42,762 bases of DNA from Desulfobacterales bacterium. GTDB taxonomy: Bacteria; Desulfobacterota; Desulfobacteria; Desulfobacterales; C00003060. Position numbers and translations under genes: made by a program. Shown here piece after piece: positions 24,957-42,024 of the stretch. How positions within the stretch are numbered: position 1 is the first letter of the stretch; the number at the start of each line of letters is the position of its first letter. The stretch is from the NCBI GenBank assembly GCA_023129535.1, contig JAGMBW010000055.1, forward strand, positions 1-42,762, in the 5' to 3' direction. The notes under the pieces are model-generated. The model saw nothing but the letters and a program-made list of their open reading frames with translations, had not been told where the DNA came from and searched no databases.

Positions 24957-25463
24957 TTACCCTGCCGTAATAACTTTTTTCATCTCGTCAAAGACCTCCA
25001 TGAGCCTGAGCATACCCACGAGCTTGTCTCCCCTCATCACCGGTAGCCGCCCTAAATTATGCGTCACCATGACGTGAACCGCCTCGGCCAGAGAGACATT
25101 TTCATCTATGGTAACCTTTATGGGAGACATGATCTCTTTGACCTTTTTTTCTGCTTCTGTCTTACATCTGCCCGAAAACTCGCCCTCGTAATAAAAGACA
25201 GGATAGTCTTTAAATGTTTCTCGGGTAAACCAGGAATAACCCCACAGTCCTCTACCATATTTGGGCTCCAATCCTATCAAGACATCTCTATAGCTGAGTT
25301 GTCCCACTGGCTCATTCTTTTCATCTACAACCAAAACAGCCTTATGCACTGCTTCGGCCAGGAGTCCAAATGCATCCTTGATAGACCCCTCTGTGGAGAT
25401 AGTCCCATAGTCTTCAATGGGAATCATCAGCTCCTTGACTTTTCGTTCTCCTTGGTTTGCCAT
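24957..25463 (-). CDS. CBS-domain pair protein
   Basis: A 168-residue protein with two CBS modules: VKELMIPIEDYGTISTEGSI through QLSYRDVLIGL, and VKEIMSPIKVTIDENVSLAE through MLRLMEVFDEM. They are separated by an unusual ~40-residue insert containing YGRGLWGYSWFTRETFKDYP. CBS pairs bind adenosyl ligands and report energy state. The start ATG has GGAGG nine bases upstream. It follows a receiver-only regulator by 31 bp and is probably the last gene of the DASS1 cluster. Confidence 0.9.
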   Translation of the reverse strand: MANQGERKVKELMIPIEDYGTISTEGSIKDAFGLLAEAVHKAVLVVDEKNEPVGQLSYRDVLIGLEPKYGRGLWGYSWFTRETFKDYPVFYYEGEFSGRCKTEAEKKVKEIMSPIKVTIDENVSLAEAVHVMVTHNLGRLPVMRGDKLVGMLRLMEVFDEMKKVITAG

Positions 25464-25493: not shown

Positions 25494-25952
25494 CTACGTT
25501 TCCTCTTTGATGTGTTCAAAGACCCGCCCAGGATGAACTTTTAACTCGGCTACCCTGGCCGCCTGGATCTTTTCTTCGTGGGCCTTTTTTTTCTCATAGG
25601 CCTGTGTCATTTTTTTCATCAAGTCATCGAGCTCTGCGGGCTTCATAATGTAATCAAACGCCCCTAATTTCATCCCCTCAATACCCGATTCCACAGTTGC
25701 ATGCCCGGTGAGCATAATGACCTCCATCAGAGGCTTCTTTCTCTTCATTTCTCGTAGCGTCTCCACCCCGTCCATGCCCGGCATCTTGACATCCAGGATA
25801 ACCACGTCAAAGAGTTTTTTGTCCAGGAGTTCCAGGGCCTTTTCCCCACTTTCAACTCCGGTCACATCAAGCTCTCGCTTCTGCAATCGATTAACAAAGG
25901 TTTCACGAAAATCATTCTCATCATCAACGACCAATACCCTAAAGTTTTCCAT
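25494..25952 (-). CDS. Receiver-only response regulator
   Basis: A 152-residue CheY-like regulator with a full receiver: acidic pair D10/D11, phospho-acceptor Asp54 (VILDVKMPGMDG), Thr in MLTGHA, and Lys in IMKPAELDD. The last ~30 residues (AYEKKKAHEEKIQAARVAEL) are a charged helix without a DNA-binding domain. It is a close paralogue of the regulator at 41563-42024. RBS AAAGGAGG is clear. It lies between the membrane protein and the CBS protein, all on one strand. Confidence 0.93.
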   Translation of the reverse strand: MENFRVLVVDDENDFRETFVNRLQKRELDVTGVESGEKALELLDKKLFDVVILDVKMPGMDGVETLREMKRKKPLMEVIMLTGHATVESGIEGMKLGAFDYIMKPAELDDLMKKMTQAYEKKKAHEEKIQAARVAELKVHPGRVFEHIKEET

Positions 25953-25976: not shown

Positions 25977-26888
25977 TCAAACACACACCAAGTATACGAT
26001 GACCCCTAAGGGGATGGTTGCAAATCTTGTCTTCTTTTTATTTCTTTGAAGAAATTCTATTCTTATATAACGCCTTTTTCTGGGATTAGCAACATAATCA
26101 AGCGCCAGATTTAAAAGAAATATGATTAAAACTGTGTGTACCAGCGACCTTCCCAGATTAGAAGGCGTGATCCCAAGCAGTTCATACGAGGCGACTTTCT
26201 TTATGCAGGCGTCAACGTATGAATCTCTTGCTTCAAAGCCTTTTTGAAATGTCAAAGAATCGACCACGTTTTGAAACAGGCTGTGGTATGGGTCCGCGAC
26301 ATCAATAGCATAAAGAAGAAGATCAATGTATACCAAATGGGTTCGGCCTAAAAGTACCCTGTGGAATTCTCTTGCGTTATCTTCCTCCGGGAGTCTGTAG
26401 ATAGAGGTAAAACCGAAAATTCTATTCTCTTTATTTAGAACCGGATTTCCTACGATGACGTTTTTCGCCCCTTTTTTGATAAGTCCCTTTTTCATGAGAT
26501 CTCTAAATTCTTTGATCACCTTGGAATCAAAAAACTCATCTACCGTAACATAATCTGTGAAAACCTTAAAACGCTTTTTTTCATGCTTGTAAGTCTTGAT
26601 ACCCAGGATGATGAGGCTCTTATCTGTTTGGTTCAAACCATCCCAACCGATAAAGGTCGTACCATACTGTTCCAGGGCGTCTTTGCACCACTCACGATGT
26701 TTCGGATCAATGGGGCTGGTGCGGAGCCAGCTTTGTGAAATCTTTTGAACGCTGGCGGGAATGGCAACAGAAAAATGGGCTTCGTCATCTGTATATAGAC
26801 TATTTCCGGCCCCCTGAATGGTGGAGGGCTTTGAAATCAGAAAAAAGAACCCCAGGCCGATGATTATGATTAAACGCATCTTCTTCAA
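25977..26888 (-). CDS. Secreted/membrane-anchored protein of unknown function
   Basis: A 303-residue protein. It has an N-terminal signal or anchor (LIIIIGLGFFFLISKP), a ~200-residue extracytoplasmic part beginning DEAHFSVAIPASVQKI, and two C-terminal hydrophobic segments (near 247-265 and 290-303). I do not recognise a family. The overall plan (signal, a mixed domain with a beta-strand opening and a final DSLTFQ-like end, C-terminal membrane anchor) is the same as in the protein at 37120-37971, and both lie next to DASS transporters and response regulators. TTG 26888 or ATG 26879 could be the start. Confidence 0.6.
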   Translation of the reverse strand: MKKMRLIIIIGLGFFFLISKPSTIQGAGNSLYTDDEAHFSVAIPASVQKISQSWLRTSPIDPKHREWCKDALEQYGTTFIGWDGLNQTDKSLIILGIKTYKHEKKRFKVFTDYVTVDEFFDSKVIKEFRDLMKKGLIKKGAKNVIVGNPVLNKENRIFGFTSIYRLPEEDNAREFHRVLLGRTHLVYIDLLLYAIDVADPYHSLFQNVVDSLTFQKGFEARDSYVDACIKKVASYELLGITPSNLGRSLVHTVLIIFLLNLALDYVANPRKRRYIRIEFLQRNKKKTRFATIPLGVIVYLVCV

Positions 26889-27154: not shown

Positions 27155-28774
27155 TTATCCTCCAACTGCGGGCCACGGCAAGAATTGCCAGTATCCGAAG
27201 AAGGCAACAAACCAGAGGACAAGCAGAGAGATGACGACAAAGGGAATACCGTAGACTACAAAGTCGAATGGGCTCAGGAGCCGTTCACCTGTCTCCGGAT
27301 GCTTGGCCATCCCGTAGGCAATGGCGTTATTCACGGTGCCCACGATCATGCCGTGGGCATAAGAAGACCCGAAGGAGCAGGCCAGTCCCACCTTCCACAG
27401 GTGCACCCCGCCTATGGCCGCCATTGGGAGAACCACCGGGCCGAGGGCCCCTACCGCAGCGCCGTCACTCATGAAGTTGGTCATGATGGTGGTGATCAGG
27501 CTTGAGGACAACACGATCCCCATCCCTTTTGAGAAATACCCCGGGAGTATTCCCACAAACTGGTTGGCCAACCACACACCGGCCCCCGTGTATTTCAGGG
27601 CAACGCCCATGGCACAGGCCCCGGCATACAGCCCGACAACATCAAAGCGCACCCTTGCCTGGATATCGTCCCAGGTCATCAAGCCCAACACTAAGATGAT
27701 AAGGACCACCAGGACGGTAGCGCCTCCCAGGCCGATTAGTGAGCTGAAACCGATCCAGAGGACAACCTGCGCCGCAAACAGCAAGGCCATGGTAAGCTCT
27801 TTTCCTCTAAGAGGCCCCATGCCCTCCACGCCCTTTCTCATCACACTCCCCAGGTCCATGTGCAGGGCGGGTCCTGTTCTGCGAGCCAGGGTCAGATATA
27901 TCCAGATGCTACAGCTTACTGCAATAAACGGCACTAATGGCAAGCCATACATCATCCACGTGCCAAAGCTCATGGGCAAACCATAGTCGTAGAAATAACC
28001 GATCATAATAGCCGAGCGACCTCCCACGGCCGGAGACCCTGAGCCGCCCACATTCGCAGCATAACAGATCCCCAAAAACAGGGTACAGGCCAGCATGTGA
28101 AGCTGTTTTTTGCTAAGGTCTCCTCTTCTTTCTCCCTCCATATAAACAAGGATAAGGATCGGACACAATAGCGCAACCAGGGCATGTTCCGATAAGAAGC
28201 CGGCAATGACCGCCAACGTGGGAAAAAAGATAAAACAAAAGCCCTTTAATCCTTTGATTTTGCCCATAAGTATATTGCCGATTCTTCTGTCAAGTCCGGT
28301 GACGCCCACGGCCGCAGCTAAGATGAGCACACCGGCGATAAAGAACACGGCGTCCTTCATGTAGGCTTTCGATATCATATTGATAGGCAAGAGGACAAAT
28401 AGATACATAATGATCCCGACCAGGATGTCTGTGGCCGCCAGGGCAATCGCCTCAGTACCCCAGAGTAAGGCGATGGTAAAAAGCATGGCCACACATAACT
28501 TCATTTTCTGGGCCACCTCCTCCGGGGTACGATCGGAATCCATAAGCTTGTTGTAGGAATCGACGTAGTTATTGGTTCCTTCCTTATACTTGGCCCCTTT
28601 GGCGTTTGTCTCCGTTGCGAGGTCCACCATGCTTTTTGGCACTGGGATTAAAGCGACCGTAGCGAAAAAGATCGCTAAACCGAGTATGATAAGCGGCCTC
28701 TGCCCGGATCCTCCTACCCACCACGGCCAGGAAAAAGTCTTGTGCGCGACTGATGCGGTAACTACATGTTCCAT
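27155..28774 (-). CDS. DASS/SLC13 family transporter 1 (SEH/SDG type)
   Basis: A 539-residue protein with about 11-13 membrane spans in two inverted halves, of the divalent anion:sodium symporter family (substrates in the family: sulfate, di- and tricarboxylates). The re-entrant hairpin motifs, normally Ser-Asn-Thr, are here FLSEHALVAL (S195-E196-H197) and NFMSDGAAVGA (S436-D437-G438). The downstream loops read GGSGSPAVGGR and VGTVNNAIAYG where the family usually has PPN. A ~40-residue polar loop follows TM1. RBS AAAGGAGGG precedes the ATG. The substrate is unknown; the motif changes make a standard dicarboxylate role doubtful. Confidence 0.88.
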   Translation of the reverse strand: MEHVVTASVAHKTFSWPWWVGGSGQRPLIILGLAIFFATVALIPVPKSMVDLATETNAKGAKYKEGTNNYVDSYNKLMDSDRTPEEVAQKMKLCVAMLFTIALLWGTEAIALAATDILVGIIMYLFVLLPINMISKAYMKDAVFFIAGVLILAAAVGVTGLDRRIGNILMGKIKGLKGFCFIFFPTLAVIAGFLSEHALVALLCPILILVYMEGERRGDLSKKQLHMLACTLFLGICYAANVGGSGSPAVGGRSAIMIGYFYDYGLPMSFGTWMMYGLPLVPFIAVSCSIWIYLTLARRTGPALHMDLGSVMRKGVEGMGPLRGKELTMALLFAAQVVLWIGFSSLIGLGGATVLVVLIILVLGLMTWDDIQARVRFDVVGLYAGACAMGVALKYTGAGVWLANQFVGILPGYFSKGMGIVLSSSLITTIMTNFMSDGAAVGALGPVVLPMAAIGGVHLWKVGLACSFGSSYAHGMIVGTVNNAIAYGMAKHPETGERLLSPFDFVVYGIPFVVISLLVLWFVAFFGYWQFLPWPAVGG

Positions 28775-28840
28775 TTTATGGTTCCCTCCTTTCTATTTTT
28801 AGGACCCTTTTCTATTCTCACCTGAGACTCTGTCTCTGAT

Positions 28841-28994
28841 CCCCCTCACCCCAAATCCCCCCAGCCCCCCTTTACTAAAGGGGGGAATTTTTAAAAGCCC
28901 CTTTACTAAAGGGGGGAGTTTTTGAAAGCCCCCCTTTTGCAAAGGGGGGTGAAAGTCCCCCTTTTGCAAAGGGGGATTTAGGGGGATTTTTTGT
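28841..28994. repeat. G/C-run palindromic repeats (AAATCCCCC...GGGGGATTT family)
   Basis: About five alternating half-units of CCCCTTTACTAAAGGGG or CCCCCTTTTGCAAAGGGG, each a small hairpin, ending GGGGGATTTAGGGGGATTTT. Related units are at 30823-30907 and 41299-41426. They lie between DASS1 and the small membrane protein and may act as hairpins in mRNA. Confidence 0.85.
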
Positions 28995-29042
28995 ATTGAG
29001 CCTAACCCTCTCCACCCGGGGGAGAGGGCAGGGGTGCAGGTA

Positions 29043-29513
29043 CTAATTGACAAACAGCTCTCTTTTCCCATGAACATAGTACCCGAACAGACACATGAGA
29101 GTAATGGGTACCAACAGGCCAAATGAGCCTGACGATACGATCATGATCAGATTATTCATAATTCCAAGGGCCAAAAAGACCATGTATACGATCCATGCAG
29201 ATCTCTTTAACCTCAAAAATCCATGAAATATATAGATACTTATTCCGGCATGGACAAAATGGATCAAAGCTGCTGGCTTTCCCAAAAGGGCCACTCCCAG
29301 GATCCCCGCCGGAGTTCCGGAAAGACCTGCGCAGATACAAAAGATGCCGCCAGCCAAGATGAGAACGCCCAACAACGTAATCCCCATTGGCCTTTTTTGC
29401 GCGTGTTTTCTTCCACGGTACACGGTATTCCCCTGGACATCGTCCATTTGTTGAAGCTCCCCCCGGATCTGCATGGCTCCCACGATCTTCACCACATCAC
29501 CCCCTTCCCCCAC
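29043..29513 (-). CDS. Small four-helix membrane protein, unknown
   Basis: A 156-residue protein with a ~42-residue soluble N-terminus and four hydrophobic segments (near residues 43-63, 68-90, 105-120 and 125-145). No family is recognised with confidence. It begins where the receiver gene ends (29513), so the two appear coupled; a later Met could be the true start since the first ~40 residues look non-conserved. It lies between a response regulator and DASS1. Confidence 0.55.
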   Translation of the reverse strand: MGEGGDVVKIVGAMQIRGELQQMDDVQGNTVYRGRKHAQKRPMGITLLGVLILAGGIFCICAGLSGTPAGILGVALLGKPAALIHFVHAGISIYIFHGFLRLKRSAWIVYMVFLALGIMNNLIMIVSSGSFGLLVPITLMCLFGYYVHGKRELFVN

Positions 29514-29959
29514 TATAGCGAGGTTAGCTCCGCTTCGCTCCGCAATTGGTCGAGTGGTCGACCACTCGACTCCGCCTCAGGCGGACGAAGGGTAGCGGAG
29601 CCCCTGAATTCTTTCTTAATAAGGTCCTTCAGGTATTTCATGTTCAATGGTTTGGGCAGATAATCTGTGCAGCCCAGGCTCCTTGCCGCCTGCTCTTTTT
29701 CCCGCGACGGGAAGGCTGACATCATGATTACAGACATTGCCCTGTCCATTTCCTTGAGCCTGGCCAGTACCTCGATTCCGTCCATCTCCGGCATGCCAAT
29801 ATCGACGATAGCCAATTGAAAGGAGTTCTCTGCAGCAAGTTTGAGCGCAGCCCTCCCTGAGTCTGCACACTCAACCTGGTAACCCTCTTTTCCAAGGATG
29901 CGCTTTAAGAGTCTTCGCATATTCTCCTCATCATCAACGACTAAAATTTTAGGCGCCAT
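29513..29959 (-). CDS. Receiver-only response regulator with a repeat-derived tail
   Basis: A 148-residue receiver protein: D9/D10, phospho-acceptor Asp53 (AIVDIGMPEMDG), MMSAFPS and Lys in LPKPLNMKYL. It is a close paralogue of the regulator at 33546-33932, which also precedes a DASS gene. The final ~24 residues (after KEFRGSA) are encoded by an octamer repeat element (GGTCGAGTGGTCGACCACTC, 29547-29566) that also occurs near 35980, so the tail looks like accidental extension. No Shine-Dalgarno sequence is obvious before ATG 29959. Confidence 0.9.
   Translation of the reverse strand: MAPKILVVDDEENMRRLLKRILGKEGYQVECADSGRAALKLAAENSFQLAIVDIGMPEMDGIEVLARLKEMDRAMSVIMMSAFPSREKEQAARSLGCTDYLPKPLNMKYLKDLIKKEFRGSATLRPPEAESSGRPLDQLRSEAELTSL
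29521..29610. repeat. Octamer-family repeat inside the 3' end of the receiver gene
   Basis: CGAGTGGTCGACCACTCG is an 18-bp perfect palindrome of the CGACCACT unit. Its flank TTAGCTCCGCTTCGCTCCGC is homologous to the reverse complement of 35975-35995. A second small palindrome is CCGCCTCAGGCGG. Confidence 0.75.
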
Positions 29960-30372
29960 AATTTAACGTTTGGGAATTTCTACCACCTATTCCGATTGCG
30001 GCCTCTGGCCCGTAAGGCCTACGCCCCGGAGGGAGCAAAGCGGAGCTAAGTTTCCTTTTCGGTCATTTCCGATAAAACGCAATGGTTGTGCCAAGAGGGG
30101 ATGATGACTGGGAATAGGGTCAACTGACTGAAAGGAAAGAAGATTATTGAAAGGTAAGGCGACGTCTGGCTTTGGGCTAACAAGGATGCTTGACAGTATT
30201 TTTTACAGATTGTAAAATATTTTTACGATGTCAAGTTCTCTTGTACAGACCTACGGCTTTGACTGGTTAGTTCTGATGATCTCGCAAAAAGTCTTCTCAC
30301 CGGTCATTGCGAGGAACGAAGCGACAAAGCAATCTCCTGATTTCAGTCACTTACGTTTCATGAGCCTGCCCT

Positions 30373-30435
30373 GCCCGCCCTGGCGCTTTAGCTTATTGTA
30401 GGCTATCAAGATAGTAATCCAGGTCTGGGCCAGGG
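30373..30435. repeat. 63-bp hairpin cassette, copy 1
   Basis: It begins GCCCGCCCTGGCGC (30373-30386) and ends CCAGGTCTGGGCCAGGG (30419-30435); CCCTGGC and GCCAGGG can pair. The 32-bp core is unrelated by eye to that of copy 2. The 17-bp end alone recurs at 30512-30528. Confidence 0.75.
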
Positions 30436-30629
30436 GCGCGACGTGGTTTGAATTCGCTCTTGCTTCTGCTGTTTCCGGGTGCCTTCATCATGATCAGCGC
30501 ACGAAGACCGGCCAGGTCTGGGCCAGGGATTGCTTCGCTACGCTTGCAATGACTGCATTGGAGACTTTTTACGAGTTTGTCACTTCTTGATTATACATAC
30601 CTAAATTGAGCGATTTTTGTAGCCGCAAC

Positions 30630-30693
30630 CCTGGCCCAGACCTGGTTTGCACAGACTATGGCTTAATTTACACGTGTCGCGCCAGGGCGGGCC
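30630..30693. mobile_element. 64-bp hairpin cassette inserted in the REP/MITE (copy 2)
   Basis: On the minus strand it begins GCCCGCCCTGGCGC (30680-30693) and ends CCAGGTCTGGGCCAGGG (30630-30646), exactly the ends of copy 1, with a different 33-bp core. It interrupts GTAGCCGCAAC|CTTTAGGTTGCG of the host element. Confidence 0.75.
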
Positions 30694-30770
30694 TTTAGGT
30701 TGCGTATTTCAAGAGAATTCGCCGTTCACCCAAGAGGTATTGATAAACGCAGGCTAAAGCCTGCGGCTAC

Positions 30771-30950
30771 GGGCGTATCCAGCACTTGGGGGTGACCACT
30801 CATCTTGCGTGCCGATTTGGAAAATCCCCCTAAATCCCCCTTTAGAAAAGGGGGACTTTGAGCTGTTTTCCTTAATTCCCCCTTTTGCAAAGGGGGGCAG
30901 GGGGGATTCATGGGAATTTATGGGACTTCCCCCAAGTAGTGGATGCGCCT
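30771..30950. mobile_element. 180-bp MITE-like insertion with 9-bp target duplication
   Basis: Imperfect inverted ends GGGCGTATCCAGCACTTGGG at 30771 and, inverted, CCCAAGTAGTGGATGCGCCT ending at 30950. TGCGGCTAC directly repeats on both sides (30762-30770 and 30951-30959) and is single in the intact host copy at 21121. Inside are G/C-run hairpin repeats of the AAATCCCCC family (30823-30907). Confidence 0.75.
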
Positions 30951-31052
30951 TGCGGCTACAGCATCTTTGGCAAAGAATCGCTCAATTTAGGAGATAATGG
31001 GGGGAGAGGTGAAAGAAAAGGTGACTCGGCCAGGTGGGGGTGAAACCGATTG

Positions 31053-31134
31053 AAAAAAACTTGAAACTCGAAAACCGAGCCTCATTGATTCGCATTCGGT
31101 CAAGTTTCAAGTTTCAAGTTTCAAGTTTCAAAAC
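31053..31134. repeat. Inverted 7-bp-unit array (AAACTTG / CAAGTTT)
   Basis: Left units AAACTTG, AAACTCG, AAAACCG (31057-31077); right side four exact CAAGTTT units (31101-31128) followed by CAAAACA. The right unit is the exact reverse complement of the first left unit. It lies directly downstream of the UspA gene and could act as a terminator-like hairpin. Confidence 0.88.
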
Positions 31135-31145
31135 ACAGAATTCTC

Positions 31146-31574
31146 CTATACGACAATTACAGGAATGGAGGCTTTGTTTACAACCTTGCGTGAAACACTT
31201 CCCAGCATAACAGTCTCACCTTTCTTAGATCGTGAACCGATGACCATAAAATCGTAACCTTTTTTTGCCTCGGCCAATATTTCATCGGCTGCATGGCCTT
31301 GAACAGTAATCGCCCTGGCCTTCACCCCGAGTTCCGAAAGGACCTTCTTGCCCCTCTCGGCGTACTCCAAAAAAACGCCGGCGCCTTTGTCAAAGACCTC
31401 TTGAAGGTCGACGTCAATAGCACTGGTATGCTGGAGAATGGCATGCAGATAGTCCGGCTTCGGCTGCACGCTCAAGACTGTCGCCTCCGCCTCCATAACC
31501 TTTGCAATCTTGCCGCCAACCCTGATAGCATTCTCTGATAGCTCCCTTCCCTCTGTACAAAAAAGAAATCTCAT
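31146..31574 (-). CDS. Universal stress protein (UspA family)
   Basis: A 142-residue single-domain UspA protein. The ATP-binding region is GSRSKKGETVMLGSVSRKVV near residues 117-136, a version of G-2x-G-9x-G(S/T) in which the second Gly is Ser, so nucleotide binding may be altered. The N-terminal strand MRFLFCTEG and QGHAADEILAEAKKGYDFMVIG are typical. The family assists survival under starvation and stress and is often encoded next to transporters. The gene is 150 bp downstream of DASS2. RBS GGGAG is present. Confidence 0.88.
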   Translation of the reverse strand: MRFLFCTEGRELSENAIRVGGKIAKVMEAEATVLSVQPKPDYLHAILQHTSAIDVDLQEVFDKGAGVFLEYAERGKKVLSELGVKARAITVQGHAADEILAEAKKGYDFMVIGSRSKKGETVMLGSVSRKVVNKASIPVIVV

Positions 31575-31643
31575 GTTCTTTTCTCCCTTGAATGTTTCAC
31601 ATTAAGTTCTAAAAGACTTCAACCTGTGCGGTTAACAAACTAC

Positions 31644-31701
31644 TTCGTGGGCGCAGAGCGCCCATCGGGTGCGTTCCCACGCAGAGCGTGGGAACGAGAA
31701 T
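31644..31701. repeat. Palindromic repeat (GCGTTCCCACGCAGAGCGTG family)
   Basis: GCGCAGAGCGCCCATCGG and GCGTTCCCACGCAGAGCGTG with GGAACGAGAA, related to 21292-21455. It fills part of the gap between UspA and DASS2 and forms a strong hairpin. Confidence 0.7.
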
Positions 31702-31724
31702 AGGGGGTTAAGGTGATGGCTATG

Positions 31725-33413
31725 TTAATAGATTGCTGGCCAGCTCAGGAACTGCCAGTAGCCGAATATACCCCAGAACCAGAGCACTATCCAGGCCATA
31801 ACAGTAACACCGAGGCCGTATTTCATAAAATCAGTGACTTCCATCAGGCGCTCGCCAGTCTCCGGATCCACGCACATACCAAAGGCAATAGCATTATTCG
31901 GCGTGCCTACGACCAGGAAATTTGCAAAGGACGAAGAAAAGGCACACGCCAACCCGACCTTCCAGGGATGGACGCCCGCCAGATCAGCCATGGGAAGCAC
32001 AATGGGACCGAGGGCGGCCACTGTTGCGCCATCGCTCATGAAATTGGTCATTGTACCGGTAAGTAGACTTATACCTAAAGCAAGGCTGTCTCCTTTGGAC
32101 AGAAAATCAGGCAATTTCTCCACAAAGGTATTGGCCAGCCAGAGCGCTCCGCCCGTGAACTTAAGGCCAACTCCCATGGCACAGGCAGCCGCATAGAGCC
32201 CGACCACGTCAAAGGCCACGCCTGACTGCACGTCCTCCCACTTGACGATGCGGCACAGGAACATCGCCACAACCGCATATAGCGTAGGCCCTCCGAGGCC
32301 GGCATGTTCACCCAGCGTGATCCAGGCAGCTACCAGGCAGACAAGGATCACGAGCATCATTGCTTCTCTGCCTCTGATCTTTCCCAGCTTGGCCGCTTCG
32401 GCCTTGACCACCTCACTTGGATTCACGTGCTTCACCTTGAATTTCGGCCTGAGGAACAAAAGCATGTAAGCGCCTATGCAGCAGGCCATCACAGGCACAA
32501 AGGGCATACCATATTTCATCCATTGTAGAAAGGGGATAGAAGCGCCATGCTCCATGAGATAGCCTACCATAATGGCATTCCGGCCCCCTGCGGCAGGCGA
32601 CCCCGGCCCCCCGTGGTTCGCAGCAAAGCACATACCAAGTACCAGAAAGAGGGCAAGGGCCCTGTCCTTCTCTACGCCGTACATCTTGCAGGTCGTTTTG
32701 TAGACGCCCATGAGCACGGGAACAAGCAGGGCTACCAGGGCGTGCTCGGAGAGAAAGGCTGCCGACATGGCGAGCATGGGAAAAAAGAGGAAGGCAAATC
32801 CCTTGGCGCTCTTTATGCGGGAAAGTAACAGAAGTCCGATCCGCTTATCAAGGCCCGTCTTTCCCACCCCAACAGCCACGGCCAGGATGCCGAAGATGAA
32901 AAAAACAGCGTCTTTCATATACGCCTTGGATATCTCATTGATGGGAAGTATGCAGAAGATATACAATAATACCCCAACCATGAGGTCAGTGGCTCCTAAG
33001 GGAAGCGCCTCGGACCCCCACAACGTGGCAGCAGTAAGAAGGATCAGCACCATGACCTTGGCAAGAAACGCCACTTGCTGAGCGGTCAGAAGAGGTTTTG
33101 GCTCATGTGCGGCGTGCTCTTTGGCAACTTCCGCATGTACGATCCCTTTTTTCTCATTTTGATACGCCTTGAAGGCCTTGGGCCGGAGCTTCTGGTTCAC
33201 GGTATCAACAATGCTCGTGCAATCCCTGCCCAGTGCGTAGCCCGGTGGCCTCTCCTTGCTGACCAGATCGAGTAGACCTTGTGGTTCAGGCAGGATTGTG
33301 AACAAGGTGAAAAGGGTTGCCACAATCAGGAGAATAATGGGCTTGTAGCCAGGTTGCCCCTTCCATGCTACAGGTATTTCCCCCGCGTAACCTGGTGTAA
33401 TGTGAACGGCCAT
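31725..33413 (-). CDS. DASS/SLC13 family transporter 2 (SEH/SDG type)
   Basis: A 562-residue paralogue of DASS1. The hairpin motifs are FLSEHALVALLVP (S222-E223-H224) and NFMSDGATVAA (S460-D461-G462), the same substitutions as in DASS1. Loops NHGGPGSPAAGGRNAI and VVGTPNNAIAFG follow, and the C-terminus ends GYWQFLSWPA like DASS1. The polar loop after TM1 is longer (~70 residues, two Cys-free charged helices). ATG 33413 has AAAGGAGG upstream. The receiver-only regulator at 33546-33932 precedes it, across a 9-bp repeat array. Substrate unknown. Confidence 0.88.
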   Translation of the reverse strand: MAVHITPGYAGEIPVAWKGQPGYKPIILLIVATLFTLFTILPEPQGLLDLVSKERPPGYALGRDCTSIVDTVNQKLRPKAFKAYQNEKKGIVHAEVAKEHAAHEPKPLLTAQQVAFLAKVMVLILLTAATLWGSEALPLGATDLMVGVLLYIFCILPINEISKAYMKDAVFFIFGILAVAVGVGKTGLDKRIGLLLLSRIKSAKGFAFLFFPMLAMSAAFLSEHALVALLVPVLMGVYKTTCKMYGVEKDRALALFLVLGMCFAANHGGPGSPAAGGRNAIMVGYLMEHGASIPFLQWMKYGMPFVPVMACCIGAYMLLFLRPKFKVKHVNPSEVVKAEAAKLGKIRGREAMMLVILVCLVAAWITLGEHAGLGGPTLYAVVAMFLCRIVKWEDVQSGVAFDVVGLYAAACAMGVGLKFTGGALWLANTFVEKLPDFLSKGDSLALGISLLTGTMTNFMSDGATVAALGPIVLPMADLAGVHPWKVGLACAFSSSFANFLVVGTPNNAIAFGMCVDPETGERLMEVTDFMKYGLGVTVMAWIVLWFWGIFGYWQFLSWPAIY

Positions 33414-33545: not shown

Positions 33546-33932
33546 TCACTCCGTTACTCCAGTTGGGGCAGAGCCCGTGAGTTCTTTCCTAACAAGGGTC
33601 TTAAGACGCTTCATGTCGAGTGGTTTGGGCAGGTAATCCGCGCAGCCCAGGCTTTTTGCCGCCTGCTCTTTTTCCCACGAGGGAAAGGCTGATATCATGA
33701 TCACGGGCATTTCCCTGTCCATTCCTTTGAGCTTTGCCAGCACCTCGATGCCATCCATATCCGGCATAGAGACATCGACTATGGCGAGTTCAAAGGGCCT
33801 CTCTGTGGCAAGTTTCAGCGCTCCCTGCCCCGAATCGACACACTCAATATGGTAGCCCTCTTTGCCAAGGACACGCCTAAAAAGCGCCAGCATATTCTCC
33901 TCGTCATCAACTACAAGAATCTTGTGCGTCAT
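33546..33932 (-). CDS. Receiver-only response regulator
   Basis: A 128-residue CheY-like receiver: D9/D10, Asp53 (AIVDVSMPDMDG), MISAFPS and Lys in LPKPLDMKRL. It is a paralogue of the regulator at 29513-29959. The ATG at 33930-33932 follows GGAAGG; the longer open frame upstream would add 86 residues of repeat-like sequence and is rejected. It lies upstream of DASS2 in the same direction. Confidence 0.92.
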   Translation of the reverse strand: MTHKILVVDDEENMLALFRRVLGKEGYHIECVDSGQGALKLATERPFELAIVDVSMPDMDGIEVLAKLKGMDREMPVIMISAFPSWEKEQAAKSLGCADYLPKPLDMKRLKTLVRKELTGSAPTGVTE

Positions 33933-34073
33933 GATCCTTCCCCAGTTTAAAAATGGACAGCACAAAGCGTACCAAGGGAAGGCAAAAAGTGGGTGTTGAG
34001 GTATAACCTGTTGAAATGAAATATATTTATAAATGATGTGACCGGGCAGGCTGCTATTGGGCGGACTGATTTG

Positions 34074-34110
34074 TGTCCAAAAACATAGACACTGTCCAAT
34101 TAGTTGGACA
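34074..34110. promoter_or_regulatory. Operator-like repeat TGTCCAA
   Basis: Three copies of a 7-bp half-site: TGTCCAA at 34074 and 34093 and its complement TTGGACA at 34104, the last two forming the palindrome TGTCCAATTAGTTGGACA. It lies ~140 bp upstream of the receiver gene. It could be a regulator site or an insertion-sequence remnant. Confidence 0.35.
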
Positions 34111-34156
34111 CTTTGTATACGTTTTAGGATGCCGCTTCGCTCAATCCCCAATCCCA

Positions 34157-34373
34157 TCCACAGATTTCGCAGATTAATAACTATACGCAACCCTCACTAT
34201 ATCATCTTTAATCTGTGGTAACCGTTCACGGATCTTTCTTCTTGTCATTGCGAGGAGCGAAGCGACGAAGCAATCTCCGAGCCGTGAACCATGAGATTGC
34301 TTCGCTCCGCTCGCAATGACAGAGGGCATGTCGGCCCTGTGAACGGTTACAATCTGCGTAATCTGCGGACCCT
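34157..34373. repeat. Nested inverted repeats between receiver and NtrC genes
   Basis: The outer pair is CAGATTTCGCAGATTA against TAATCTGCGGA-like ends, the middle pair GTAACCGTTCAC (34218) with GTGAACGGTTAC (34339), and the inner pair two GTCATTGCGAG units (34243-34320). It fills the gap downstream of the NtrC gene; no gene is supported. Confidence 0.7.
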
Positions 34374-34380
34374 CAATTTC

Positions 34381-35751
34381 TCAATCGATTGAGTTCCCTA
34401 TACCGAGTTCTTTTAGCTTGTTATAAAGGGAGCTTCGACTGATGCCGAGAAGTTTGGCCGCCCTGGTCTTGTTCCCTCCTGAATCTCTCAAGGCGGCCGC
34501 TATTGCCTCCTTTTCTTCCTGCCGGGCGAGGGTCCTTGTTGCAGTCTTCAAGGGTTTGAAAACTTTGTGCGATACGTCTTCTCTTGCGATGGGGAAACAG
34601 AGTGATGCCTCATCAATGAGCGGACCGGGGGTAAGCAGCACGGCACGTTCCATCACGTTTTCAAGTTCTCTCACGTTTCCGGGCCAGGGATTCTCCATGA
34701 GGGCCCGCATGGCCCCAGGTGTGACATCAGACAGATTCTTGTGATAGGCCCTGGCATATTTGCGCATAAAGTGATGGGCGAGCGGCGCGATATCTTCTCT
34801 TCGTTCCTGCAAGCGAGGCACATTCACGGTCACTACTGCCAGCCTGTAGTAAAGATCCTTTCGAAAGGTCCCATCATGCATAGACTGCTCAAGGTCTACA
34901 TTTGTAGCTGCCAGGACTCGCACATCTACCTTCGTGCTGGCCACAATTCCTACCGGCTTTATCTCCTTTTCCTGGAGGACACGGAGCAGATTCAATTGCA
35001 CCGCAGGCGAGATCGTCCCGACCTCGTCCAAAAAGAGTGTGCCGCCGTCTGCGGCAAGAAAGAGTCCCTCTTTGTCCTTAACAGCCCCGGTAAAGGCCCC
35101 TTTGACATGCCCGAAGAGCTCGCTTTGTAAAAGGTGTTCTGGCAAAACACCACAATCCACAGCGACAAAAGGCTCATCTCGCCGACTGCTAAGATCGTGA
35201 ATGGCTCTGGCAATCAGTTCCTTGCCGGTGCCACTTTCTCCCTGGATAAGGACTGTCGCCTGGCTGTCAGCAACCTTGGTAATGAGCTTGAAGACGCTGT
35301 CCATGGCCTTGCTCTTGCCAACAATCTCTTTAAATCCATCCCTTACCTTAAGCTCCTCGCGGAGCCGTTTGACCTCGTTGTGTAGCTTGCAGTACCTTAA
35401 CGCCTTACCGACCACAAGCAGAATATCGTCCCTCTGGAAAGGCTTGGTCAGGTAATCAAACGCCCCCGCCTTCATGGCCTCAACCGCTGATCCGATGGTC
35501 CCGTAAGCGGTGATGACGATGAAGGGAATATCCGGATGCTTAATCTTTACCTCCTTCATGAGGTCGATACCACCAAGGACAGGCATGACAAGATCAGAGA
35601 TAATAAGATCGAAGGCTTCCTCTTGTAACATGCGGAGGGCTTTGTTTCCGCTGTCAGCGGTTCGGACCTCATACCCTTCCTTGCCCAGGACTTTCTGAAA
35701 AAGCTTGAGCATGTTCTGCTCGTCATCCACAACCAACAGCTTTGGTAACAT
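34381..35751 (-). CDS. NtrC-family sigma-54-dependent response regulator
   Basis: A 456-residue activator: receiver (D9/D10, Asp53 in IISDLVMPVLGG), a linker, an AAA+ domain with Walker A GESGTGKE near residue 170, the sigma-54 contact loop GAFTGA, Walker B GGTLFLDEVG and the arginine finger region FRKDLYYRL, then a Fis-type helix-turn-helix (GNKTRAAKLLGISRSSLYNKL). It activates sigma-54 promoters when phosphorylated, most likely by the PAS kinase encoded just upstream. The promoter before DASS3 is a candidate target. AAGGGA precedes the ATG. Confidence 0.96.
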   Translation of the reverse strand: MLPKLLVVDDEQNMLKLFQKVLGKEGYEVRTADSGNKALRMLQEEAFDLIISDLVMPVLGGIDLMKEVKIKHPDIPFIVITAYGTIGSAVEAMKAGAFDYLTKPFQRDDILLVVGKALRYCKLHNEVKRLREELKVRDGFKEIVGKSKAMDSVFKLITKVADSQATVLIQGESGTGKELIARAIHDLSSRRDEPFVAVDCGVLPEHLLQSELFGHVKGAFTGAVKDKEGLFLAADGGTLFLDEVGTISPAVQLNLLRVLQEKEIKPVGIVASTKVDVRVLAATNVDLEQSMHDGTFRKDLYYRLAVVTVNVPRLQERREDIAPLAHHFMRKYARAYHKNLSDVTPGAMRALMENPWPGNVRELENVMERAVLLTPGPLIDEASLCFPIAREDVSHKVFKPLKTATRTLARQEEKEAIAAALRDSGGNKTRAAKLLGISRSSLYNKLKELGIGNSID

Positions 35752-35991: not shown

Positions 35992-37107
35992 CTAAGTTCC
36001 CTGTTGCACAGGTAAGTATATGCTGCATGTGGTGCCTGCACCCTCACAACTCTCTATTTCGATCTTGCCGCCGTGGTCGTCCATGATTTGCTGACAAACC
36101 GAAAGACCCAAACCTGTCCCCTTACCCCCCTTTGTCGTAAAGAAGGGATCAAAGACTCGCTTAAGGTCCTTTTGGGGGATGCCGTGGCCTGTATCAGATA
36201 TAGTGACCCTAACGTAATTTTGGTCCTGTTGTGATTGCTGGCAACGCACAACACCGAGGCTTAGTTGAAGTTCACCCGCGTTCGGCATGGCTTGAATACC
36301 ATTGATCATCACATTGAGGAAGACCTGCTGGATAAGGTCCGGGTCGATCACGGTATAAGGAAGTCCGTTCTCATAGGCCCTTCTGATCTTGACTTTATTC
36401 TTCTTGAATTGAGGAATAAGTAATAATACTGAATCTTCCAGAAGCTGCAATATGTCTACCTGTGTCCTTTGGGCCGGCTTTAAACGGGCAAAGTCGAGGA
36501 GGTCCTTGACCACCTCAACACACCGTGTCGTCTCCTGTTCGATGATCTTGATCGATTCAAAAAGGGGATAGTCTTCCGAAACCTCATCCAGCATATCCTG
36601 AACAAATCCGAGAATGATCCCAAGAGGATTGTTGATCTCATGGGCTATGCCTGCTGCGACTTCACCCATGAAAGCAAGTTTGCTGGATCGATTAAGCTGG
36701 TCTTGCAACATGTTCCGCTCGTCGAGGAGCCTGCGGTATCGTTCCTCGTCCTCCCGGGTCTTTCCCTCCTGGAGGCGTTTCGTGGTTACATCCCGGAGCG
36801 TTAGCAGAAGGCAGGGGGATCCATCATGATCAAAGGGGGCAAAGGAGACGCTTGCCATAAAGATATGACCATCTTTTCGCCTGAGATCTATGTCAACTTC
36901 TGTCGTCTTTTTGATCTCGGACAGTGTTGAAAAGATGTATCGGCCCGATTCATAAGGAGCACACAGATCTCGCAGGTTAAGCCCCAAAAGCTCGGTGCCG
37001 GAGTATCCGGTAAATTCTTGTGAGCTTTTGTTGGCGAAGATTATCTGACCATCCTCGTCAGCAACCATCAGAGGGAGGGTCACCCCTTCAACCATAGCCC
37101 TAAACAA
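35992..37107 (-). CDS. Soluble PAS sensor histidine kinase
   Basis: A 371-residue kinase without membrane spans: a PAS domain (MVADEDGQIIFANKSSQEFT through LLLTLRDVT, about residues 13-110), a coiled linker, the H box GIAHEINNPLGI with His156, and ATPase boxes NVMINGIQAMPNAGE, DTGHGIP, DPFFTTKGGKGTGLGL. It probably phosphorylates the NtrC-type regulator encoded next. The start is TTG at 37107 with GGGAG upstream, 12 bp after the preceding stop; Met5 is an alternative. Being soluble, it must sense an internal cue or a membrane partner. Confidence 0.92.
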   Translation of the reverse strand: MFRAMVEGVTLPLMVADEDGQIIFANKSSQEFTGYSGTELLGLNLRDLCAPYESGRYIFSTLSEIKKTTEVDIDLRRKDGHIFMASVSFAPFDHDGSPCLLLTLRDVTTKRLQEGKTREDEERYRRLLDERNMLQDQLNRSSKLAFMGEVAAGIAHEINNPLGIILGFVQDMLDEVSEDYPLFESIKIIEQETTRCVEVVKDLLDFARLKPAQRTQVDILQLLEDSVLLLIPQFKKNKVKIRRAYENGLPYTVIDPDLIQQVFLNVMINGIQAMPNAGELQLSLGVVRCQQSQQDQNYVRVTISDTGHGIPQKDLKRVFDPFFTTKGGKGTGLGLSVCQQIMDDHGGKIEIESCEGAGTTCSIYLPVQQGT

Positions 37108-37119
37108 TGGTTTCTCCCA

Positions 37120-37971
37120 TTAAAACTCAACCCACTTAAAGGCGGCCAGGCAGACAATAAAACTCAGCAAAATGCTTATTACTCGTATGGCCCCTCGATT
37201 AACCCGGAGTCTTGATTTGAAAAAAGATTCAAGACCCCAACTGAATCCTAAGTAAAGGATAAAGAAAAGGGCCAGGAGCTTGAGGATATCCTCGATCCGC
37301 TCACCCCACGTCCGTTCTTCCCACCAATTTTGGGGATAGGGGCGATGCTGATATTTCTCTTTGAATTCAAAGGATTCGATTAGCCGATGAAAAAGGGATG
37401 CGCTTTCCAACGACCTGGTGGGAGGGGATGAAAAAAGGACCAGGTAAACAACCTCATGGCTTCCTAAAAGGGAGACATAGTATTCTTCGGCTTCAAGGCC
37501 CTCGGAAAACTCAAATTTACAGGTGAATTGCATGACCCCATTTTCCCGGCTGGTGACAGGCCCCTTCAGTGATACTTCCGTCAGACCGTACCTCTGAAGC
37601 TGACCAACCAGAGCCTTTTCATAAGCCTCGATGTTTTTTGTGCTTGCAAATTCCTCATAAGGGAGGGCTTTCCTCAATCTCTTTCGATAGGGCTGGATCT
37701 TAAGGCCTACGAAAAGGAAGGTGTTATCCTCTTTGGCTACAAAGACCCGGTCAAAATCTTTGATTCGCTTTTTGTAGACACGTTCCCAGGGAGTGTCAGA
37801 AAGGAGTGAAGGCGGCAAATCTTTTGATTTGAGAAGGGTAAAACCTTCTGGAAGCCGGAAGGTAAAGTGGTACTCCCGGATCTCTTGAGGAAGCACGAGT
37901 TTTCTGGCGGATACATCTCCTGTGGAGATAACGAATATCACAGCCAGTATGGAAAAATATCTCATTCCCAT
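37120..37971 (-). CDS. Secreted/membrane-anchored protein of unknown function
   Basis: A 283-residue protein with a signal peptide (YFSILAVIFVISTGDVSA), a ~190-residue extracytoplasmic domain (YHFTFRLPEGFTLLKS, GVMQFTCKFEFSEG, LIESFEFKE) and two C-terminal membrane helices (near 233-250 and 262-280). The strand pattern and final SFEF are reminiscent of PsbP/DcrB-like folds, but this is only by eye. It shares this layout with the protein at 25977-26888. It lies between the PAS kinase and a receiver, so it may be the external sensor for the soluble kinases. Start could be Met1 or Met3. Confidence 0.6.
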   Translation of the reverse strand: MGMRYFSILAVIFVISTGDVSARKLVLPQEIREYHFTFRLPEGFTLLKSKDLPPSLLSDTPWERVYKKRIKDFDRVFVAKEDNTFLFVGLKIQPYRKRLRKALPYEEFASTKNIEAYEKALVGQLQRYGLTEVSLKGPVTSRENGVMQFTCKFEFSEGLEAEEYYVSLLGSHEVVYLVLFSSPPTRSLESASLFHRLIESFEFKEKYQHRPYPQNWWEERTWGERIEDILKLLALFFILYLGFSWGLESFFKSRLRVNRGAIRVISILLSFIVCLAAFKWVEF

Positions 37972-38004: not shown

Positions 38005-38445
38005 TCAGATTTCTCCGACTTTTCTCATAAGAAGCCTCGCTTCCGCCCTTCTGATCCGCTCTTCTTGCTCGTCCTTTCTCTTTCTGGCTGTCTCAAGTTT
38101 GGCTGATAGGTCTTCGAAATCGGCCGGCTTCAAAAGATAATCAGAGGCGCCCAGTTTCATTCCCTCCACAGCGGTTTCTATAGTACCGTGCCCAGTTAGC
38201 ATGATAACCTCAACCAGAGGGAATCTCCTCTTTACCTCTCTTAAGGTTTCAATGCCATCCATACCTGGCATCTTGATATCGAGAATCACCACATCAATTT
38301 CCTCGTTCTTGAGGGTTTCGAGACATTCTTTGCCGCTATAGGCAGGTGTTGGTTTTTCTCCTTCCTCCTTCAACCTTAAGGAAAGCATTTGCACAAAATC
38401 TTTCTCATCGTCGACTACCAGTATTCTGGTTGGTACTTTGATCAT
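38005..38445 (-). CDS. Receiver-only response regulator
   Basis: A 146-residue receiver protein: D12/D13, Asp56 (VILDIKMPGMDG), MLTGHG and Lys in LLKPADFEDL, with a charged C-terminal helix (ARKRKDEQEERIRRAEAR). ATG 38443-38445 overlaps the stop of the upstream receiver-kinase gene by 4 bp (ATGA), so the earlier in-frame codons are not needed. This coupling suggests that it receives phosphate from that kinase. Confidence 0.92.
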   Translation of the reverse strand: MIKVPTRILVVDDEKDFVQMLSLRLKEEGEKPTPAYSGKECLETLKNEEIDVVILDIKMPGMDGIETLREVKRRFPLVEVIMLTGHGTIETAVEGMKLGASDYLLKPADFEDLSAKLETARKRKDEQEERIRRAEARLLMRKVGEI

Positions 38446-39593
38446 GATACTCTTTCTCCTTCTTTGATTTGATGCTGTTTCGGTAACTTGACACAAAAGC
38501 TGGTCCCCCGGCCGAGCTCGCTTTCCACCTCAATCTTTCCGTCGAGCTTCTCAATAATGCTGCGAGTCACGAATAGTCCCAGGCCCGTGCCTTCGCCAGG
38601 AGATTTGGTGCTGAAAAACGGCTCAAAAATCTTTTCCAGATCCTCTTTGGGAATTCCTTTCCCGGTATCGTGCACCGTAAGGAACACCTCCTCGCCGATA
38701 GCTTCAAGAATTATCGTGATTTTGCCTCCAGACCCGGTCGCCTGAATGGCATTGGTTAGAAGATTGATCAAGACCTGTCTCAACTGATATGGATCACTCC
38801 AGATGGTATCTATAGAATGATCCACTTTCTGGACGATTTCAATATTCTTGTTTGCCGCTTCCCTATTTACCGATTGAACAATTTCATCTACCAATCCTCT
38901 CAGGTCCACTTTAGCCAGGGCTGAATCGCTTTTTCTTACAAATCCCAAGAGCTGGTGAGTGATTCTCCTGGTCCTCTCTATGCTCTCTTCTATCTTGTTC
39001 AGCGCCATGTCAAAGTCCTGCTTGCGCGGCATCTCCGCCAGTTCTTCTTTTTTAAGGAGGAGCTTCAACCAGCCGGCCGATTCCTTCATGATCGCCAGAG
39101 GGTTATTGATCTCATGGGCCACGCCGACTGCCAGGGTTCCTAATGAAGCGAGCCTTTTGGTGGCTATCATCTGCTGCTCCATCCTGGCCCTGAATTCTGC
39201 CTCCCTGAGTTTTTCTTCCCCCCGGCGGCTCTTTTCGTGGGCCTGTTTAATCTTGCCTAATAAATGTTCGAGTTCTACTGGTTTGGCGAGATAATCAAAG
39301 GCACCTGACTTGATGCCCTCAACCCCATCCTGGGTAGTTGCATGCCCTGTCAGGAGTATGACCTCGGTTTTAGGGTGTTTTTTCTTGATATGATGAAGGA
39401 CCTCGACCCCGCTCATACCAGGCATCCTAACGTCCAATACCACCACATCCACGGGTTTTTTCTCAAGGATAGCTAAACACTCTTCACCATTTCCTGCCTC
39501 TGCAGGGCAAATGCCCCTTTTTGTTAGACGTTTGGCAATGGTACGCCGGAAGTCATCTTCATCGTCAACAAGGAGAAGCCGTATGTTTGTCAT
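38442..39593 (-). CDS. Receiver-histidine kinase hybrid (soluble)
   Basis: A 383-residue protein with an N-terminal receiver (D10/D11, Asp54 in VVLDVRMPGMSG, TGHAT, LAKPVELEHL), a coiled linker, H box GVAHEINNPLAI with His160, and ATPase boxes NLLTNAIQATGSGG, DTGKGIP, PFFSTKSPGEGTGLGL. It lacks membrane spans and sensor domains. Its ATG directly follows the stop codon of DASS3 (TAAATG, no spacing) and its end overlaps the next receiver gene by 4 bp, so transporter, kinase and regulator appear made together; this hints that the kinase reads the transporter's state. Confidence 0.94.
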   Translation of the reverse strand: MTNIRLLLVDDEDDFRRTIAKRLTKRGICPAEAGNGEECLAILEKKPVDVVVLDVRMPGMSGVEVLHHIKKKHPKTEVILLTGHATTQDGVEGIKSGAFDYLAKPVELEHLLGKIKQAHEKSRRGEEKLREAEFRARMEQQMIATKRLASLGTLAVGVAHEINNPLAIMKESAGWLKLLLKKEELAEMPRKQDFDMALNKIEESIERTRRITHQLLGFVRKSDSALAKVDLRGLVDEIVQSVNREAANKNIEIVQKVDHSIDTIWSDPYQLRQVLINLLTNAIQATGSGGKITIILEAIGEEVFLTVHDTGKGIPKEDLEKIFEPFFSTKSPGEGTGLGLFVTRSIIEKLDGKIEVESELGRGTSFCVKLPKQHQIKEGERVS

Positions 39594-41562: not shown

Positions 41563-42024
41563 CTATTTTCTTTCTTCTTTTATCTGTTCAAAGATCCGCG
41601 CCGGGTGCCCCATCAATTCCTTGACTTTGGCCTGGCGAATCTTTTCTTCATGAGCCGATTTCCTTTGATAAGCCTGGCGCATCTTTTCCATCAAGTCATC
41701 GATATCTGCTGGCTTCATGATATAATCGAATGCCCCGATCTTCATCCCTTCAATCCCTGATTCAACCGAAGCGTGGCCGGTCAGCATGATGACCTCCATG
41801 AGGGGCCTCTTTCTCTTCATTTCTCGTAAAGCTTCCACCCCGTCCATGCCTGGCATCTTGACATCCAGGATCGCCACATCAAAAAGCTGTTTATCGAGCA
41901 ATGCAATGGCGTCTTCGCCGCTTTCAACTCCGGTCACATCAAGGTTTCGCTTCCGCAGGCGATTAACAAAGGTTTCGAGAAAATCACGCTCATCATCAAC
42001 AACCAACACTCTAAACTCGTGCAT
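41563..42024 (-). CDS. Receiver-only response regulator
   Basis: A 153-residue receiver protein: D10/D11, Asp54 (AILDVKMPGMDG), MLTGHA and Lys in IMKPADIDDL, with a charged helical tail (AYQRKSAHEEKIRQAKVKEL). It is a close paralogue of the regulator at 25494-25952 over its full length. GGAGG lies upstream. It follows the stop of the partial kinase gene by 12 bp, so the kinase is its likely partner. Confidence 0.93.
   Translation of the reverse strand: MHEFRVLVVDDERDFLETFVNRLRKRNLDVTGVESGEDAIALLDKQLFDVAILDVKMPGMDGVEALREMKRKRPLMEVIMLTGHASVESGIEGMKIGAFDYIMKPADIDDLMEKMRQAYQRKSAHEEKIRQAKVKELMGHPARIFEQIKEERK

Follow-up and report, generated by a model that had tools for sequence, protein, structure and literature searches.

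For sulfate reducers, sulfate import is the first step and has a major effect on reduction rates, and as of 2018 the importers responsible in dissimilatory sulfate reducers had not been identified in any study (PMC5840216). In Desulfosarcina variabilis 3be13, a 30.5-kb cluster (Dvar_38230, Dvar_38430) is described as encoding abundantly formed DASS-type sulfate transporters along with two-component systems and CBS-domain proteins, and the passages on this cluster report related clusters in 26 species (PMC11887813). Here we analyze contig JAGMBW010000055.1 of a Desulfobacterales bacterium (assembly GCA_023129535.1), the whole 42,762-nucleotide stretch of which we call the window, and the three DASS transporter genes that it carries, DASS1, DASS2 and DASS3. 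As in the D. variabilis cluster, as far as those passages describe it, several DASS genes of a sulfate reducer lie among genes for two-component systems and CBS-domain proteins. Judged by gene anatomy, a comparison that leaves motif types aside, the window is one of these published sulfate-uptake clusters. The gene cluster, the family and the probable substrate are thus already known; what appears to be new is a rewiring of the binding site that marks a clade of these transporters.

The DASS proteins of sulfate reducers have also been surveyed and divided into groups Ci and Cii in a study that includes HRM2_38230, HRM2_38300 and HRM2_40290, and HRM2_38230 and HRM2_38300 were highly expressed at low sulfate (PMC5840216). 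That paper contradicts itself on the D. autotrophicum gene associated with low sulfate, which is given as HRM2_38300 or as HRM2_40290, while elsewhere HRM2_38300 is the high-sulfate gene. The string "SNT", for the Ser-Asn-Thr motif of the binding site, does not occur in its text; likewise, the passages of PMC11887813 on the D. variabilis cluster do not mention the tip motifs, and a search of open-access full texts gave no publication that deals with the loss of SNT from these transporters.

The binding site itself has been described in proteins of the same fold. VcINDY, a Na+/dicarboxylate cotransporter, has SNT in the tips of both re-entrant hairpins, HPin and HPout, and SPPN and TPPN in the loops L5ab and L10ab. 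Its Na1 site is a clamshell formed by the HPin tip and L5ab (PMC9098524), and Asn151 touches both Na1 and the substrate (PMC13394699). Human NaS1 (SLC13A1), a Na+/sulfate cotransporter, holds sulfate with residues of HPin and L5, namely Ser139, Thr141, Thr259 and Ser260, with Asn140 on Na1 (PMC10980263). In the exchanger LaINDY, Na1 is filled by Arg159, which lies on HPin just past the tip, and Na2 is filled by a His (PMC7553777).

The initial annotation had proposed that DASS1 and DASS2 carry Ser-Glu-His (SEH) and Ser-Asp-Gly (SDG) in place of both SNT motifs. Both open reading frames are present, and the replacements are borne out by alignment and by structure prediction. When the two proteins were searched against the PDB with phmmer, both aligned with VcINDY and with human SLC13 proteins, and the VcINDY alignments were gap-free across both hairpins, with FLSEHA placed on WISNTA and FMSDGA on FASNTA. 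The predicted loop changes stood up as well: the canonical (T/S)PPN positions are occupied by GGRS (DASS1) and GGRN (DASS2) in L5ab, and by TVNN and TPNN in L10ab. In an AlphaFold2 model of DASS2 (mean predicted local distance difference test score [pLDDT] 89.4, predicted template-modeling score 0.87), HPin is broken at residues 219-222, with helices 203-218 and 223-244 on either side, and HPout is broken at residue 460, where helix 441-459 gives way to helix 461-479. These helix breaks identify S222-E223-H224 and S460-D461-G462 as the hairpin tips. An AlphaFold2 model of DASS3 (pLDDT 83.7) likewise has His-Asp-Ala (HDA) and Ala-Asn-Val (ANV) at helix breaks, and both models show the two re-entrant hairpins and the broken helices of the DASS fold. 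A Foldseek search with the DASS2 model returned human NaS1 as the best match (E 1.6e-18). NaCT and VcINDY came next, and VcINDY is about 23% identical to DASS2 in the fold alignment.

An alignment artifact, in which canonical SNT motifs would occupy the tips and SEH and SDG would lie elsewhere, deserves almost no weight: the VcINDY alignments have no gaps, the DASS2 helices break at SEH and SDG, and each motif occurs only once in DASS1 and once in DASS2. The phmmer alignments of DASS1 and DASS2, the AlphaFold2 model and a tree of 155 sequences led us to reject misalignment, and no canonical SNT was found at the hairpins. Degenerate or broken genes were also ruled out, since the frames are open and the motifs are kept across dozens of genomes from several phyla. 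All three proteins match PF00939 (Na_sulph_symp; cut-off 27 bits), with 101.5 bits for DASS1, 140.6 for DASS2 and 177.8 for DASS3, which is the best-scoring match in the host genome. Because SNT, which the characterized Na+-coupled DASS (DASS-C) have at both tips, is absent from both tips of DASS1 and DASS2, we class these two as divergent DASS and not as canonical DASS-C.

The absence of SNT is not limited to the two paralogs. The shared pattern noted for DASS1 and DASS2 is real, and its confinement to that pair is not, since DASS3 and an entire clade lack SNT. Among the DASS proteins of relatives and 80 named loci we defined five SNT-less types by their HPin and HPout motifs: A (SEH/SDG), B (SAH/SDA), C (SDH/ADG), D (HDA/ANV) and E (AHT/MNV). 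The family tree that had been suggested as a check was built with FastTree from 155 sequences; each type forms one clade (support 0.997 to 1.0; 0.997 for type A), and the five together are split from the SNT proteins with a support of 0.998, in a midpoint-rooted tree that includes only four SNT proteins. The grouping of D with E is weak (0.378). DASS2 is of type A and DASS3 of type D, and DASS1 falls in a distinct A' subclade (support 1.0) whose members keep TVNN in L10ab. Among 72 type A sequences, S-E-H is found in 71, the remaining one having S-G-H, and S-D-G is found in all 72. Mean pairwise identity is 65% and the minimum is 38%, so that the conservation of the motifs is not due to chance. 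These counts come from sequences sorted by their HPin motif, part of which come from loci retrieved by a match to KAYMKDA or MTNFMSD, a selection that favors SD; type A members found with a hidden Markov model, free of any pattern, have the same motifs, and type A is also a clade in the tree. Group Ci of the published survey is probably our type E, judging from the Gly258 and Ala260 described for it (PMC5840216). D. alkanivorans and D. widdelii, congeners of D. variabilis, have types A, C and E.

Two further features set the clade apart. At the L5ab position of VcINDY Pro202, an Arg is present in 151 of 151 SNT-less sequences (as GGRN, GGRS, GARN, GGRC or AARG), whereas Pro is found in 30 of 30 canonical DASS and Arg in none of those sampled; in a set of four SNT sequences the residue is Pro, or Ala in one exchanger-like protein. 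The second concerns HPout, where 27 of the 30 canonical DASS have a Glu four residues ahead of the SNT Asn. The SNT-less clade has Asn at that upstream position (Gln in 5 of 25 type C sequences), and types A to C have Asp at the position of the SNT Asn. Since the upstream Glu is lost and an Asp is gained, the HPout acid appears, at the level of sequence, to have been relocated (from 457 to 461 in DASS2 numbering) and not simply added, as the initial annotation had it. The middle residue of the HPout motif is always Asp or Asn within the clade, and that of HPin varies from type A to type E (Glu, Ala, Asp, Asp, His). This suggests that HPout still provides the cation ligand (Na2) and that Na1 may have been replaced, the Arg being the candidate.

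From these observations we infer that DASS1, DASS2 and DASS3 are elevator-type importers of the DASS/SLC13 fold that couple sulfate uptake to a cation and feed dissimilatory sulfate reduction, and that they belong to a subfamily with both SNT tips replaced, a reading that we consider quite probable; sulfate is the likely substrate, and the direction, the cation coupling and the role of each residue are inferred along with it. The reading draws on the PF00939 matches, the placement of the tips, the NaS1 fold match and the clade-wide Arg, together with the link to dsrA, the content of the host genome, neighbors like those of the published cluster and TauE genes near 11 loci, all described below. 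In DASS2 numbering, sulfate would be held by the HPin tip on one side and L5ab on the other, as it is in human NaS1. NaS1 differs in having its own SNT at HPin and SNP at HPout, and in having Thr259 and Ser260 in L5 where DASS2 has Gly276 and Gly277, followed by Arg278. In DASS2, Ser222 would be kept and His224 would stand in place of the substrate-binding Thr. Arg278 would place a positive charge in the Na1 clamshell and would either pair with Glu223, thereby standing in for the Na1 ion, or contact sulfate directly; that it replaces the Na1 ion is a tentative proposal to which we give slightly less than an even chance. Asp461 would assume the cation-ligand position of VcINDY Asn378 (Na2), the canonical acid nearby (457) having been lost, and the transport domain would carry sulfate and at least one coupled cation by an elevator movement. 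A stronger version, in which the Arg permanently occupies or neutralizes Na1 and the Asp or Asn serves Na2, would give sulfate import with fewer Na+ per turn, possibly electroneutral; we regard it as rather unlikely.

The same residues bear on what drives transport. Altered coupling, which the initial annotation had raised, is possible on the basis of the motifs, and the proteins could be sulfate importers that are proton-coupled or that act as anion exchangers, with Glu223/His224 and Asp461 as proton sites or with Arg278 abolishing Na+ coupling. Ionizable residues are present at both tips, the superfamily has H+-coupled members in ArsB and Drosophila INDY (PMC13381914), and Pho90, a yeast phosphate carrier of the DASS fold in which His779 replaces the HPout Asn (PMC13381914), is a precedent for an ionizable HPout residue in a carrier of an inorganic oxyanion, although the residue and the substrate differ and sequence similarity is only distant. 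An Arg in the loop of the Na1 clamshell (PMC9098524) also recalls the Arg that fills Na1 in LaINDY in lieu of plain Na+ ligands (PMC7553777). That likeness is an analogy only: the LaINDY Arg is on HPin after SNT and its His is at Na2, whereas the Arg of the SNT-less clade is on L5ab. At the position of the HPin Arg (SNTAR in the exchanger-like L004), the SNT-less clade has Leu, Met, Ala or Val, and its HPout motif has no His ahead of it. We therefore rejected membership in the LaINDY-type exchangers (DASS-E). Furthermore, the Ser at VcINDY position 412, which marks cotransporters (PMC13394699), is kept in all full-length type A to D sequences (Ser495 in DASS2), as it is in VcINDY, with which DASS1 and DASS2 are collinear. 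Overall, we judge proton coupling or exchange to be an unlikely but serious alternative.

The host genome points to sulfate as the substrate. It is 98% complete and contains full dsrA and aprA genes; DASS1, DASS2 and DASS3 are its sole PF00939 proteins, and it gave no match to a SulP sulfate transporter, the CysP and TSUP/CysZ families lying outside the search. Sulfate uptake by this organism may thus rest on three SNT-less DASS. With a type A profile (E <= 1e-60), 34 of 395 genomes of the phylum gave matches, which cover types A, B and C. dsrA is present in 33 of these 34 genomes versus 190 of the 395 overall (p about 1e-10), and for type A alone it is present in 14 of 14. Because shared ancestry inflates the 33 of 34, canonical DASS and carriers in other phyla matter as controls. 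Canonical SNT DASS, found in the same 395 genomes with a comparable profile, show no link to dsrA (21 of 49 carriers, p = 0.45); for both comparisons, list overlaps were counted by hand. Among six type A metagenome-assembled genomes (MAGs) from outside the phylum, dsrA scores above the family cut-off in three (Calditrichaeota, Bacteroidetes/Chlorobi and an unclassified bacterium). A functional subfamily, as the initial annotation had argued, is well supported by the monophyletic clade, the strong dsrA link and the conserved regulatory cluster.

A different substrate had also been suggested, and DASS1, DASS2 and DASS3 could mainly carry an organic dianion or a sulfur oxyanion other than sulfate (sulfite, thiosulfate, a sulfonate or a dicarboxylate), with sulfate as a side substrate. 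The three paralogs of the cluster differ in type and could each take some of these substrates, TauE/SafE-like proteins, whose family has sulfite exporters among its members, are encoded near 11 loci and near one Phycisphaerae copy, and one type A gene lies beside hydrogenase genes in a Phycisphaerae genome. We find this improbable given the dsrA link, NaS1 as the best fold match and a host that lacks SulP or any other DASS. In addition, published proteomic and transcript data, as given in the passages concerned, connect sulfate with the DASS clusters and DASS genes of sulfate-reducing bacteria (PMC11887813, PMC5840216), and since these clusters have been assigned to sulfate before, there is no need to invoke a substrate beyond the DASS range.

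Several points weigh against cation-coupled sulfate import. DASS1 (147.5 bits) and DASS2 (184.1 bits) miss the NCBIfam TIGR00785 cut-off of 198.6 bits. Two Phycisphaerae MAGs and one Poribacteria MAG have type A without dsrA, which implies either a role wider than dissimilatory sulfate reduction or incomplete MAGs. To our knowledge, transport has been measured for no member with these motifs, and among tested DASS we know of none in which both tips bear a carboxylate; the extra acids near the anion site could hinder sulfate.

The features of the window are collected in Table 1.

Table 1. Transporter genes, binding-site motifs and neighboring genes in the window.
Feature	Position	Strand	Description	Evidence
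DASS1	27155..28774	-	539-aa SNT-less DASS transporter, type A' (SEH/SDG/GGRS/TVNN)	open reading frame, PF00939, A' subclade
DASS1 HPin tip	28184..28192	-	Ser-Glu-His (aa 195-197), SNT position	alignment
DASS1 HPout tip	27461..27469	-	Ser-Asp-Gly (aa 436-438), SNT position	alignment
DASS1 L5ab	28013..28024	-	GGRS (aa 251-254), canonical (T/S)PPN position; Arg is clade mark	
DASS1 L10ab	27326..27337	-	TVNN (aa 480-483), canonical TPPN position	
DASS2	31725..33413	-	562-aa SNT-less DASS transporter, type A (SEH/SDG/GGRN/TPNN)	open reading frame, PF00939, AlphaFold2 model
DASS2 HPin tip	32742..32750	-	Ser-Glu-His (aa 222-224)	alignment and model
DASS2 HPout tip	32028..32036	-	Ser-Asp-Gly (aa 460-462)	alignment and model
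DASS2 L5ab	32577..32588	-	GGRN (aa 276-279), including Arg278	
DASS2 L10ab	31893..31904	-	TPNN (aa 504-507)	
DASS3	39594..41177	-	527-aa SNT-less DASS transporter, type D (HDA/ANV/GGRC/CPPN)	open reading frame, PF00939, AlphaFold2 model
DASS3 HPin tip	40545..40553	-	His-Asp-Ala (aa 209-211)	model
DASS3 HPout tip	39861..39869	-	Ala-Asn-Val (aa 437-439)	model
CBS-domain protein	24957..25463	-		Pfam CBS
Response regulator	25494..25952	-	receiver protein	Pfam
303-aa protein	25977..26888	-	no Pfam match; directly downstream of DASS1	
156-aa protein	29043..29513	-	hydrophobic, no Pfam match; upstream of DASS1	
Response regulator	29513..29959	-	receiver protein	Pfam
Universal stress protein (Usp)	31146..31574	-	downstream of DASS2	Pfam
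Response regulator	33546..34190	-	receiver protein, upstream of DASS2	Pfam
NtrC-like response regulator	34381..35751	-	receiver, ATPase-like and helix-turn-helix-like sequence	translation; clusters with response regulators
PAS histidine kinase	35992..37107	-		Pfam
283-aa protein	37120..37971	-	no Pfam match; homologous to 25977-26888 protein	BLASTP E 2e-12, 23% identity
Response regulator	38005..38496	-		open reading frame; clusters with response regulators
Receiver-histidine kinase hybrid	38442..39593	-	directly downstream of DASS3	Pfam
Response regulator	41563..42024	-	upstream of DASS3	open reading frame; clusters with response regulators
Histidine kinase	42037..42762	-	cut by window end	Pfam

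Regulatory genes are typical of these neighborhoods. Across 63 records (the window and 62 loci), histidine kinases are found in 54 and response regulators in 51; neighbor clusters c4 and c8 were ignored as probable antisense frames in G+C-rich genomes. The neighboring two-component and CBS proteins would control transport by the proposed sulfate importers. The presence of two-component genes around most copies, combined with altered coupling residues, would also suit transceptors, whose main task would be to report outside sulfate to the two-component systems next to them and whose transport flux would be small. We think this very improbable: the kinases have sensory domains of their own (dCache in relatives and, in the passages on the published cluster, a cache domain), and the same passages describe the DASS proteins of that cluster as abundantly formed (PMC11887813).

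The types also recur together. Types A, C and D are found in the order D-A-C (L076 and L094), D. alkanivorans has types A, C and E inside about 40 kb, and Eth-SRB2 has types A, D and E inside about 70 kb. A' members with enough flanking sequence have two neighbor genes of their own: homologs of the 25977-26888 protein lie directly downstream of the A'-type DASS in L119, L120 and L121, and homologs of the 29043-29513 protein lie upstream of it in L120 and L121. The related proteins next to DASS1 (25977-26888) and in the DASS3 block (37120-37971) may belong to an unnamed family of accessory proteins for these transporters.

Other genes recur beside type A DASS, as seen at L085, L087, L091, L094, L095, L096, L115 and others: a PPDK_N/PEP-utilizer protein of ~856 aa is encoded at 13 loci, a TauE/SafE-like protein of ~430 aa at 11 and an unnamed 228-aa protein at 6. 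In one Phycisphaerae MAG (L114, 277-4981), the type A gene has NiFe-hydrogenase subunit genes on one side and a gene for a hydrogenase maturation protease on the other, and in another (L118, 2269-3597) a TauE/SafE-like gene is directly upstream of the type A gene. Within the window, the 1.2-kb intergenic stretch from the Usp gene to a response regulator gene (29960-31145) holds dispersed, partly palindromic repeats, with 72 matches in its own genome including itself, mostly 70-97% identical and about 25-240 bases long. These are likely small mobile or REP-like (repetitive extragenic palindrome-like) elements.

Several findings go beyond the initial annotation: the L5ab Arg is invariant, the acid appears to have shifted from 457 to 461, a third transporter lacks SNT, and the cluster is of a published kind. 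Specialists would be surprised to see both signature motifs replaced in what are probably the sulfate importers of sulfate reducers, a natural variant of the medically studied SLC13 fold. A signature of an L5ab Arg without SNT, separating these transporters from the carboxylate DASS, would allow their proper annotation in genomes, and it names a few residues whose mutation would probe the changed coupling. If import with fewer Na+ per turn is true, it would be an energy-saving adaptation of sulfate respirers living near the thermodynamic limit, and the energy-saving subfamily would extend to the dsrA-bearing members of other phyla.

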